Below, in pieces: positions 45,667-49,383 of a stretch of DNA of 64,000 nt. Both the position numbers and the translations under genes were made by a program. The stretch's first letter is position 1. Each line of letters begins with the position of its first letter. Source of the DNA: Chloroflexota bacterium (GTDB lineage: Bacteria; Chloroflexota; Anaerolineae; Anaerolineales; Anaerolineaceae); assembly GCA_021372725.1 (NCBI GenBank), contig JAJFTV010000073.1, positions 1-64,000 of the forward strand, read 5' to 3'. The notes beneath the pieces were generated by a model. That model worked only from the letters and a program-made list of their open reading frames with translations. It did no database searches and was not told the DNA's origin.

Positions 45667-45726
45667 GGGAGGGGATAAGTTTTATTACATTTAGTGGAGT
45701 TATAGAAAAGAAATTGGTGATTGATC

Positions 45727-47886
45727 ATGCAAAATATCTATTCATCTGATGCACCCATATTAGATCCAGAAATGGATCAATTTGGTAGATACCCATTTGC
45801 TCAAAGAATTTCTCAAACAATTATTTCTCGCCAAGAAGCCAGTTGCCTGGTTCTAGCAATCTATGGAAAATGGGGTGAAGGCAAAACAACGGTTTTAAAT
45901 TTTATTGAAAATGGCCTAAGAGAAGAATCGCGAATTGTACCTATACAGTTTAATCCTTGGCGGTATCTTTCAGAACAAGAATTAATTTCGAGTTTTTATT
46001 CGACATTAGCAGAAAATTTAGGGAGATCATTATCCAATTCAAAAGAAAAAGTCGGCGATTGGATTCAAGAATATTTAACAGCACCTGCTGCAATTTTTGA
46101 TCGTAGTGTTGCTGCTAAAGAATTTGGCTATCTATTATCAAAAGTACAACTTGAGGAACTTCGAGATCGTATCTGCAAAATTTTGAGAGAAGAAAATAAA
46201 ACAGTTGTTGTGTTAATAGATGATATCGATCGATTGGATAAAATTGAAATACATTCTATATTTCGTTTGGTCAAGCTTTCAGCAAATTTTGAAAAATTAG
46301 TTTATATTTTAGCTTTTGATGATGAGATGGTGGCTGATGCTTTACAGGAAAAATATGGAACAAATAATACTGATGCTGGAAAAAAATTCTTGGAAAAAAT
46401 TATCCAAGTTCCACTAAATCTACCCATTATAGAACATCAAAGTTTAAGGAATTTTTGTTTCAAGGGTATAGATGAAGCATTGAAGCAAGCTAATATTGAA
46501 TTATCTGTGGATGATGTACATCATTTTGTGTCGGGTTTTAGTAGTGGTATTGAGATTCAATTAAAAACGCCACGAATGGCAATCAGATATATTAATGCTT
46601 TAAAATTTTCATTGTCTATGGTTAGAGGAGAAGTCAATATTGTTGATTTTCTGCTTATTGAAGCAATTCGTGTTTTCTATCCTGATATTTATAGTTTTAT
46701 CTGCAATAGCCAAGAAGTATTTCTTGGAAAATCGTTAGAATTTTATGATTCGTCACAAGTAGAAAAGGATAAATTGCGCAAGATTGTTGATAAAATATTT
46801 ATTGATGTACCAGAAGCGGTTCAAGGATCGATAAAGGGTTTATTAATTTCATTATTTCCTAGATTGCAATCAATTTATGGAAATACTTCTTATCTTTCAG
46901 AATGGGATAAAAGATGGGAAACGGAGAAGCGAATTTGTTCGGATAGATATATTAAACGATATTTTTCATATTCCCTTCCCATTAATGATATTTCGGATCA
47001 GGAAATTGAAGCAATTATTTCCTTATTAAATACTGCTTCACAAGAAGAAATTATTAATAGCATAAACACATTAATAACTCCACAAAATTCAGAAGCCTTG
47101 ATATCTAAATTACTGATATTTACTGAAAATTTACCATCAGATTCGTCAAAACAACTTGCATTAGCACTTTCTAATTTTGGTACCAAATTACCTAATCCTA
47201 AACAATTTTCCGAATTTAATACGCCATTTTCCAGAGGCGCGATGTTGATTTCTCATCTTGTCGAGAATATAACTCCGAAGGAAGAACGATTTGAATTCGT
47301 AAACCAAATAATTGAGAAAAGTCAACCACTAACTTTTGCTAGCGAAATTATTAGTTGGTTACGAACTGATAATAGTCGATATCCAAATGCTTTTTCTGGA
47401 AGTGAGAAAGATGAATTAGCTAATGATTTAGCTAAAAGAATTGAGAAAGAAGCCAATAACGGCTTATCAATATTTGATGAATTTCCACGACAAGCACCGT
47501 TATTAATGACATATTGGAGTACAAGGGTTTCTAGCGAACGAGCAAACCACTATCTGCAGAATTTTATTGAGGGGAATGCTAAAAATATAGCGAAGGTTTT
47601 ATCTAGTTATCTTCCTACAACTTACACTTTAATGACAACTGATGCACCTCATCTGGGTGATTTTGAGAGAGATCAATATAATTCCTTAATTAAAGCTTTT
47701 GATCCTACTATTATTTATAATGAGTTACAGAGAATATATAGTAACAGTTTGTTTAGTGAAGAATATCCTTTAAATGAATTTGAAGATGTGAATATAAGAA
47801 TTGCTAGCCAGTTCATGTGGTTACATAAATATGTTGAATCTCAGTCTTCCGAAGAAAGCGCTACTAAAGATACCCATGCTAAGTAG
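45727..47886 (+). CDS. KAP-family P-loop NTPase
   Basis: A 719-residue NTPase. The Walker A loop is GKWGEGKT at residues 47-54, followed by the KAP-specific FNPWRY (76-81) and a Walker B-like VVVLIDDIDRLDK (about 160-172). KAP proteins usually carry membrane helices between the two motifs; I see none here. Its base use is much more AT-rich than neighbouring genes, which suggests transfer. Family members include PifA, which excludes phages, so a defence role is a reasonable but unproven idea. Its stop codon belongs to a REP hairpin, so the C-terminus may be altered. Confidence 0.82.
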   Translation: MQNIYSSDAPILDPEMDQFGRYPFAQRISQTIISRQEASCLVLAIYGKWGEGKTTVLNFIENGLREESRIVPIQFNPWRYLSEQELISSFYSTLAENLGRSLSNSKEKVGDWIQEYLTAPAAIFDRSVAAKEFGYLLSKVQLEELRDRICKILREENKTVVVLIDDIDRLDKIEIHSIFRLVKLSANFEKLVYILAFDDEMVADALQEKYGTNNTDAGKKFLEKIIQVPLNLPIIEHQSLRNFCFKGIDEALKQANIELSVDDVHHFVSGFSSGIEIQLKTPRMAIRYINALKFSLSMVRGEVNIVDFLLIEAIRVFYPDIYSFICNSQEVFLGKSLEFYDSSQVEKDKLRKIVDKIFIDVPEAVQGSIKGLLISLFPRLQSIYGNTSYLSEWDKRWETEKRICSDRYIKRYFSYSLPINDISDQEIEAIISLLNTASQEEIINSINTLITPQNSEALISKLLIFTENLPSDSSKQLALALSNFGTKLPNPKQFSEFNTPFSRGAMLISHLVENITPKEERFEFVNQIIEKSQPLTFASEIISWLRTDNSRYPNAFSGSEKDELANDLAKRIEKEANNGLSIFDEFPRQAPLLMTYWSTRVSSERANHYLQNFIEGNAKNIAKVLSSYLPTTYTLMTTDAPHLGDFERDQYNSLIKAFDPTIIYNELQRIYSNSLFSEEYPLNEFEDVNIRIASQFMWLHKYVESQSSEESATKDTHAK

Positions 47887-47928
47887 GGTGCGTTCGGTTG
47901 CGGAACGTCTTCGTTCCGAGAACGCACC
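47887..47928. repeat. REP hairpin, copy 1
   Basis: Outer arms GGTGCGTTC and GAACGCACC enclose an inner hairpin (CGGAACG / CGTTCCG). The 42-base unit, with flank GTAGG before it and ATTCCCTTAT after it, is identical to the copy at 48446. The TAG inside the GTAGG flank is the stop codon of the KAP gene. The trailing flank matches the last codons of the RAYT gene. Confidence 0.9.
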
Positions 47929-47939
47929 ATTCCCTTATA

Positions 47940-47999
47940 TTGAACCTCCGGCCTCTTGCACCCCATGCAAGCGTGCTAACCGATCTATACTATTCCTCT
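47940..47999 (-). pseudogene. Truncated tRNA-Pro (GGG) remnant
   Basis: On the minus strand, a D arm (GTAT..GCAC), an anticodon stem CTTGC/GCAAG with loop ATGGGGT (anticodon GGG), and a T-stem half GGAGG followed by TTCAA can be traced. The tRNA stops in the T loop, where the REP flank begins. The 3' acceptor half is missing, so it is a remnant. One D-stem pair is mismatched. Confidence 0.65.
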
Positions 48000-48072
48000 A
48001 TTAGGAGCTTGCCTTTATTCTAGCATAAAGAGCACACGACTGAAAATTGTGGTGTCATTAATCAAAACAAAG

Positions 48073-48131
48073 ATCCGAACTCAGATCATATACTTCGGAG
48101 GTATACGTTCTATCCATTGAACTACGAGGAC
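48073..48131 (-). pseudogene. Truncated tRNA-Arg (CCG) remnant
   Basis: On the minus strand it starts GTCCTCG, TA, then a perfect D stem GTTC/GAAC and an anticodon stem TATAC/GTATA with loop CTCCGAA (anticodon CCG). A T loop TTCGGAT follows, but after it the expected CGAGGAC acceptor half is absent and replaced by unrelated T-rich sequence. It is therefore broken just inside the T arm. Confidence 0.7.
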
Positions 48132-48274
48132 ATAACGCTAAATTCCCCAACTCCTGTCTTATCCTTGAAAAGGTTACGGACTAACCATTCGTTAAGAATC
48201 ATGCTCGCTTTGGGGATGCGAATGGTATGTATGCTATTAATTATCCTGCTCTCACGGTTGACATCTGTATGATC

Positions 48275-48346
48275 TGGGGGTTCTACTTGCCTGAGAGTAC
48301 ACGGTTCACAACCGTGAGGTCGGCGGTTCAAATCCACCCACCCCAA
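48275..48346 (+). pseudogene. Degenerate tRNA-Val (CAC)-like gene
   Basis: An anticodon stem CACGG/CCGTG with loop TTCACAA (anticodon CAC, valine) and a T arm GGCGG/CCACC with TTCAAAT are present. The D stem TACT/AGTA pairs, but the D loop lacks the GG pair, position 26 is missing and two of the seven acceptor pairs are mismatched. It might still be made, but I regard it as probably non-functional. Confidence 0.55.
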
Positions 48347-48445
48347 CATGACAGGCTTTAAAGAGACCTTTTTCACTGCGGGAGGAATATTAATTGAAAT
48401 GTGAAGACAAGCGTACATTATGGGACAAGTCAGAAGTGATAGTAG

Positions 48446-48487
48446 GGTGCGTTCGGTTGCGGAACGTCTTCGTTCCGAGAACGCACC
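48446..48487. repeat. REP hairpin, copy 2 (RAYT 3' side)
   Basis: An identical 42-base copy of the hairpin after the KAP gene. It sits six bases beyond the RAYT stop codon, and so marks the 3' end of that element. It is inverted relative to the long hairpin at 49337-49378 beyond the RAYT 5' side. Confidence 0.92.
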
Positions 48488-48493
48488 ATTCCC

Positions 48494-49039
48494 TTATTCG
48501 TCATATTTCACATCAAAATGATTTGTCTCATCAGGTTCCCATTCGGGCAGGTAATATCCCTTACGAACATAATCATGAAAGCTTGACCATGGCCAATCGG
48601 TAACGCGCTCAACCATTCCATGCTTCACAGGGTTGTAATGAATATACTCGATATGATGATACAAATCTTCTTCATCGCGTATCATGTGCTCCCAGAAACG
48701 ACGCTGCCAGATCGCTGCTTCTCCCCGCTTTTGTCTTGATTCATTCCGCATTTCGCCAGGTCCAATGATCCGCAGATATTGCATTGTGAATGATTTCTTT
48801 ATTTCTTTCCAGCGTAAAGAATAATCTGTGTCCGATTCCGGAAGTGTCCATATACAATGGATATGTTCCGGAAGAAGACAAATGGCATCTGTTGTGAATG
48901 GGTGACGTTTGCAAACTTTTATCCAGGCTGAGTGTAGTAAGGATCTGGATGTTTCATTCGCAAGAATTGGTATCCGGTCGAATGTGACAACCGTAAAGAA
49001 ATATGTTCTGCCAAAAAATGCTCTTCTATAATCAGGCAT
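48494..49039 (-). CDS. REP-associated tyrosine transposase (RAYT)
   Basis: A 181-residue Y1 transposase of the IS200/RAYT type. The HUH motif is PEHIHCIW (His59, His61) and the catalytic tyrosine is in HHIEYIHYNPVKHGMV (Tyr132). It acts on single-stranded REP hairpins to copy or move them. Copies of such hairpins flank the gene on both sides here, in inverted orientation, which is the textbook RAYT/REP setting. The first twelve bases of the gene are repeated twice upstream as the start of a tandem unit. It is likely active or recently active. Confidence 0.93.
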   Translation of the reverse strand: MPDYRRAFFGRTYFFTVVTFDRIPILANETSRSLLHSAWIKVCKRHPFTTDAICLLPEHIHCIWTLPESDTDYSLRWKEIKKSFTMQYLRIIGPGEMRNESRQKRGEAAIWQRRFWEHMIRDEEDLYHHIEYIHYNPVKHGMVERVTDWPWSSFHDYVRKGYYLPEWEPDETNHFDVKYDE

Positions 49040-49383
49040 ATTGGATATTATACAAAGGATTAAAAATAGTGCAGATGGGGAGAATTACGCAAATGGTTTT
49101 TAGTATTTGGTGCGTTCAAAGTTCGAACACACCCTACGATAATCAGGCATATTCGAAATTATACAGAAAGATCAAAAATGTTGGATGTGAACGAATATTT
49201 ACGGAAATGGTTGTATGGTATTTGGTGCGTTCAAAGTTCGAACGCACCCTACGATAATCAAGCTTATTGGAAATTATTCAGGGAGAGTAAAAATCATGTT
49301 TGTGAGGAGATTAACGGAAATGGTGATTGAATGTTCGGTGCGTTCTCGGAACGAAGACGTTCCGCAACCGAACGCACCCTACG
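49028..49383. repeat. Three tandem copies of the RAYT left end with REP hairpins
   Basis: Three diverged direct repeats run 49028-49138, 49139-49253 and 49254-49383 (111, 115 and 130 bases). Each begins with ATAATCAGGCAT or a near match, which is the reverse complement of the RAYT start, and ends in a REP hairpin followed by CCCTACG. The first two hairpins are short (nine-base arms, 49109-49133 and 49224-49248). The third is the long two-part version (49337-49378). The pattern suggests repeated duplication of the element end. Confidence 0.9.

Follow-up and report, generated by a model that had tools for sequence, protein, structure and literature searches.

The RAYT gene and its REP hairpins

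The window, the whole stretch of 64,000 nucleotides that was analysed, corresponds to contig C149 of a host draft genome of 3.55 Mb in 200 contigs. The locus studied here is a REPtron, in which a RAYT (TnpAREP) gene lies between inverted GTAG REPs and is accompanied by an array built from its own left end. The gene (48494..49039, minus strand) encodes a protein of 181 aa. The NCBIfam model REP_Tyr_transpos (NF047646) matches this ORF at 2.2e-54 with 183 bits, against a cut-off of 80, and the solved E. coli TnpAREP (PDB 4er8) matches at 5e-41; a Pfam search with the protein gave no match. The HUH motif, H59-x-H61, and the catalytic tyrosine, Y132, are all invariant among nine aligned relatives. 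Y132 occupies the aligned position of Y115 in 4er8, the catalytic tyrosine of the E. coli enzyme. The motifs EHIH (a variant of DHLH), WEH and YIHYNP correspond to those listed for TnpAREP subclass 2.2 (PMC6006769), and, judged by these motifs and by a long REP with an irregular stem, the protein fits that subclass. A score above the family cut-off, an HUH motif with a single tyrosine, inverted flanking REPs and cognate REPs elsewhere in the genome together mark it as a RAYT. The gene is present in a single copy in its own genome and there falls short of an autonomous insertion sequence, for which multiple copies or empty sites would be expected; some relatives do carry multiple copies. The relatives in which the same protein occurs include records under the names Leptolinea, Anaerolinea and Anaerolineaceae, which makes the host Anaerolineaceae-like.

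The long REP, GTAGGGTGCGTTCGGTTGCGGAACGTCTTCGTTCCGAGAACGCACC, measures 46 nt including its GTAG foot and is present in three identical copies at the locus. The copy on the 3′ side of the gene (48442..48487, plus strand; foot at 48442-48445) is complementary at 46/46 positions to the outermost upstream copy (49337..49382, minus strand), and on both sides of the gene the REPs face it in inverted orientation, which bears out the original prediction that hairpins of opposite orientation bracket the RAYT gene. The third copy (47883..47928, plus strand), which that prediction omitted, is a direct one and lies inside a 57-nt repeat (47882-47938 and 48441-48497, 57/57 identity). This repeat takes in the rayt stop codon, as its reverse complement; the right end of the element has therefore been copied too. 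Short REPs are found at 49109..49137 and 49224..49252, both on the minus strand, and share their lower stem with the long REP. Folded as single-stranded DNA, all three REP versions are far more stable than shuffled sequences, and the long REP at 48442-48487 forms an irregular stem of -16.9 kcal/mol (z -5.7).

A genome-wide REP count, proposed with the original prediction, found other copies: five further perfect-armed REPs lie outside the locus, against 0 for a reversed-pattern control, with a GTAG foot in three and variants of it in two. One dispersed REP (G000:C129:8635-8694; L022, L040) has a different long loop and is preceded by CCTGATAATCGCAGGG, a sequence close to that of the CCTGATTATCGTAGGG junction in the window array, either by chance or as a moved junction. 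We also note two degenerate tRNA-like sequences in the interval between the direct long REPs (47939-48441), one at 48060-48131 (minus strand; Rfam, 34 bits) and one at 48277-48345 (plus strand; 25 bits, under the curated cut-off), neither of which is reported by ARAGORN. A KAP-family P-loop ATPase with a PADLOC PifA match of 1e-75 is encoded at 45721-47886 on the plus strand, and the GTAG foot of the REP at 47883 supplies its TAG stop codon.

The array of left-end units

Upstream of the gene lie three units, each composed of a REP, a promoter-like spacer and a version of the first 12 nt of rayt, all on the minus strand. U1 (49028..49137) carries a short REP, a spacer with TGTATAAT and the first 12 nt of the gene itself. 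U2 (49138..49252), which abuts the REP of U1, carries a short REP, a spacer and ATGCCTGATTAT (12/12), and U3 (49253..49382), which abuts the REP of U2, carries a long REP, a spacer and AAGCTTGATTAT (10/12). In the direction of the gene, the array runs from long REP-spacer-AAGCTTGATTAT through short REP-spacer-ATGCCTGATTAT, twice in succession, to the gene. The three units had been predicted upstream of the gene and are present; because U1 is the left end that belongs to the gene itself, the extra copies number two. The prediction that every unit opens with the first twelve bases of the gene holds for U1 and U2 and fails for U3, in which the start codon is lost. U2 encodes, across its junction, a 16-codon ORF, MPDYRRVCSNFERTKY. 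A TGTATAAT-like box lies shortly upstream of the start codon position in all three spacers; a promoter scan of the array gave results near shuffle level.

The repeat is not due to chance (self-BLAST E=4e-43). An assembly artefact was considered and ruled out because the units differ from each other, by 16-32%. The spacers of U1 and U2 are 80% identical, those of U1 and U3 70%, and those of U2 and U3 73%. No left-end units were found elsewhere in the host's own genome, where they are confined to the RAYT locus. The three upstream REPs share one direction rather than alternating with inverted REPs in tandem, and the array is for this reason BIME-like and not a BIME.

The predicted change from short to long hairpins is also observed, the two inner REPs being short and the outer one long. 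Were the long REPs as old as the closest units (85% identical overall), 46 identical positions would be expected with a probability of ~0.85^46, or ~6 in 10,000. The long REPs are identical while the spacers are only 70-80% identical, and they therefore look younger than the spacers; we infer that they arrived, or were homogenised, later than the units, and the shift from short to long is probably a later replacement. Such a late arrival or homogenisation resembles the REP replacement that is termed orthoswitch in passages of PMC3686654.

Left-end copies and mobile RAYT elements in other genomes

RAYT loci were gathered from relatives and from other phyla. A first pass found an extra 5′-end copy within 1.6 kb at 10 of 149 distinct RAYT loci and 5′ copies at 23 of 526 neighbour ORFs, rates that looked similar. 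Under stricter criteria and with more loci, the counts were 16/227 RAYT loci (7%, a figure that ignores the shared ancestry of the loci) and 10/406 neighbour ORFs of at least 150 codons, with a Fisher p=0.011 that is only a guide because the loci are not independent samples. Two of the ten copied neighbour ORFs are themselves RAYTs, which leaves 8/404 non-RAYT ORFs, and the remaining eight also seem to be situated on REP repeats; copying therefore follows the REPs and not the rayt gene as such. At L182, for example, an adjacent gene has had its 5′ end captured likewise. Left-end copies were found in Chloroflexota (the window, L046, L172, L182 and L197), Planctomycetota (L133; the weaker first-pass L092 failed the stricter test), Methylococcales (L110, L113, L272, L279, L284, L311, L321, L326 and L357) and one MAG of Polarisedimenticolaceae (L157). 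Almost no left-end units distant from rayt genes were found in other genomes.

The edges of these copies are tied to the REPs. A script placed the 5′ edge no more than 6 nt from a GTAG hairpin in 12 of 16 cases; the window, whose alignment is interrupted by differing loop lengths, shows the same by eye. At the 3′ edge of the copy, the next REP has its GTAG foot within 7 nt in 9/16, and likewise in the window. Within the CDS, the 3′ edge falls at +12 in the window, +94 in L046, +104 in L172, +233 in L272 and +290 in L321, endpoints whose differences indicate independent events. The L272 copy is 98% identical over 352 bp and its origin is therefore recent; L321 and L113, at 96% and 95%, are likewise recent. 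In two loci, L326 and L357, the REP whose foot meets the fragment belongs to another family. Inspection by eye revealed short junction microhomology (~0-3 nt) and no common dinucleotide, CT or CA, at the CDS breakpoints. A right-hand CDS remainder is found within 1.5 kb downstream neither in the window nor in the other left-end cases; weak downstream protein matches at L311 are chimeric genes, and that at L279 is a full tandem copy.

The original prediction offered the array as a clue to how BIME-like arrays grow, which is a fair reading because duplication of the left end is real and recurs at other RAYT loci with REP-foot junctions. Its other suggestion, that the array may show how RAYT elements spread, divides: the units have not spread in the host's own genome, while whole elements occupy several sites in relatives. 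Two RAYT copies with unrelated flanks are 98.7% identical over 755 bp in G198 and 97.2% identical over 649 bp in G334, and four copies in G313, again with unrelated flanks, are ~92-95% identical. Both ends of the G334 copies consist of the shared inverted repeat AGCGCGGTAGG/CCTACCGCGCT, and the left edge in G313, AGCCNN-GTAG, recurs at the edge of several left-end copies. A search for the empty sites of four mobile copies found none, no relative's sequence spanning a junction. These near-identical copies suggest that whole RAYT elements with REP-defined ends move in relatives, contrary to reports of no mobility. In the passages concerned, those reports find no evidence of tnpAREP mobility (PMC8266576) and no formal evidence of autonomous mobility (PMC6006769), and state that RAYTs do not copy themselves (PMC8049555); RAYT duplication is considered in part of PMC3686654. 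Relatives that carry such copies at unrelated sites are natural systems for testing RAYT mobility.

Several other arrangements were observed in these genomes. L311 (G313) holds chimeric transposase genes at 2148-2652, in gene orientation, and in a second copy further downstream, in which a REP, the leader and the N-terminal part of RAYT (MSNYRR..) stand in frame with another Y1 core (NHVH, YIELNP). At L320 (G334) a RAYT copy lies beside a repeat resembling an integron attC site, which is present in many Methylomonadaceae genomes. L255 (G174:C29:1-2237) is an array of REPs and inverted REPs with the leader and the first ~20 nt of rayt, and no rayt gene was found on that stretch. L253 (G160:C13, ~1500-1710) is an internally deleted RAYT element consisting of a REP, 5′ CDS, a short remainder and an inverted REP, at a site that differs from those of other copies.

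Origin of the array and relation to known systems

We lean towards a reaction in which the RAYT protein cuts 5′ of the REP foot and links the end so released to a 3′ end within the rayt gene. The protein would bind the folded REP on the coding strand and cut immediately 5′ of the GTAG foot, and the REP 5′ end would be joined to a 3′ end opened within the 5′ part of the rayt CDS, in a single-stranded circle or between sister strands. The product would be a REP-promoter-5′ CDS segment placed directly before another REP. Such joining gives exactly the observed junctions, and it is from these sequence junctions that we infer the link to the enzyme. TnpAREP in vitro is described in parts of PMC8266576 as cutting single-stranded DNA 5′ or 3′ of the REP, with GTAG as guide, and TnpAREPs as cleaving at CT, or at CT and CA. 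The 16/227 left-end copies, REP-foot edges, varied endpoints, recent copies and joins to other REP families speak for the enzyme; against it stand CDS edges that share no CT or CA, unlike the in vitro cuts, microhomology that fits slippage, units that are nearly always near rayt, and the copying of neighbour ORFs. In the window, one event probably took place after codon 4, followed by tandem copying of a ~113-nt unit, as two junctions fall at the same base; later, the outermost short REP would have been replaced by the long REP also present on the right side.

The main rival is replication slippage or illegitimate recombination, in which a fork meets a REP hairpin, the nascent strand slips at a homology of a few nt and a segment is copied twice with RAYT uninvolved. 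This is possible, if on the unlikely side. It draws on the short junction microhomology, on copies that are tandem and mostly local, and on the like copying of REP-adjacent ORFs; moreover, had codons 5-6 of the window gene once been CGTAGG, the gene and the REP foot would have shared 6-7 nt. A stalled fork, however, should give copies that end at the hairpin foot nearer to it; those observed span the whole REP and extend up to 6 nt past the GTAG foot. The edge of the Methylomonadaceae copies (AGCC before GTAG) is that of whole mobile RAYT copies, and slippage within one locus does not yield the joins to another REP family seen at L326 and L357.

We consider it improbable that a RAYT element inserted into an older RAYT, so that the left end of the older copy stayed upstream and its right part came to lie downstream. 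In favour of this, relatives show movement of whole RAYT elements, and adjacent RAYT genes occur in L279 and L311, but the absence of a right-hand CDS remainder in the window and in the other left-end cases speaks against such nesting, and to produce the three units of the window the same base would have to be hit repeatedly. Selection for the array as a regulatory leader, with a -10-like box, a start codon and a hairpin in each unit to tune rayt, has even less to recommend it: the TGTATAAT-like box recurs in all three units and the 16-codon ORF of U2 is still open, but the start codon is gone in U3, the spacers have diverged to 70-80%, the promoter scan lies near shuffle level, and selection accounts for keeping an array, not for its origin.

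Left-end copies joined at REP feet are a defined and testable product of the supposed RAYT reaction, and their presence near ~7% of related genes suggests how REP hairpin arrays grow. A bolder extension, which we regard as rather doubtful, is that the RAYTs of this clade still transpose and regularly cleave the genes encoding them behind the left REP, with the resulting modules joining arrays and fusing to transposase cores. If that were true, in-frame fusions of modules to other transposase cores, as in L311, would give new transposases.

Among the closest known systems is the REPtron/RAYT type of E. coli (TnpAREP subclass 2.2), with which the window locus shares the protein family, the YIHYNP tyrosine motif, the WE motif, inverted GTAG REPs on both sides and a long REP with an irregular stem. 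In contrast to that type, the window locus combines short perfect and long irregular stems over a common lower stem at one locus, in a REP-poor genome of a Chloroflexota-like host. Like IS200/IS605 single-strand transposition, the system involves an HUH tyrosine enzyme, hairpin ends and a guide tetranucleotide, and an IS200/IS605 end joined to an internal site would yield junctions of the window type; the window ends, however, are inverted REPs, whereas those of IS200/IS605 are two hairpins of the same strand sense. The tandem REPIN/REP clusters of Pseudomonas (Bertels and Rainey 2011, PMC3116915) likewise repeat REPs with their flanks at regular spacing, but are described, in the passages concerned, as arrays without rayt coding sequence. 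Captured rayt 5′ ends find no mention in the main-text passages of the literature on RAYTs and REP arrays that were covered. In excerpts of Nunvar et al. 2010 (PMC2817692), four cases are reported in which rayt 3′ ends were captured between REPs, and a RAYT reaction is proposed for BIME growth. As in the window, a piece of rayt recurs in a REP array together with the REP next to it; unlike those cases, the window repeats the 5′ end, with a promoter-like spacer and start codon, upstream of the gene, and such copies occur in several phyla. Capture of the rayt 3′ end is thus already published, and the recurrent 5′ version adds to it.
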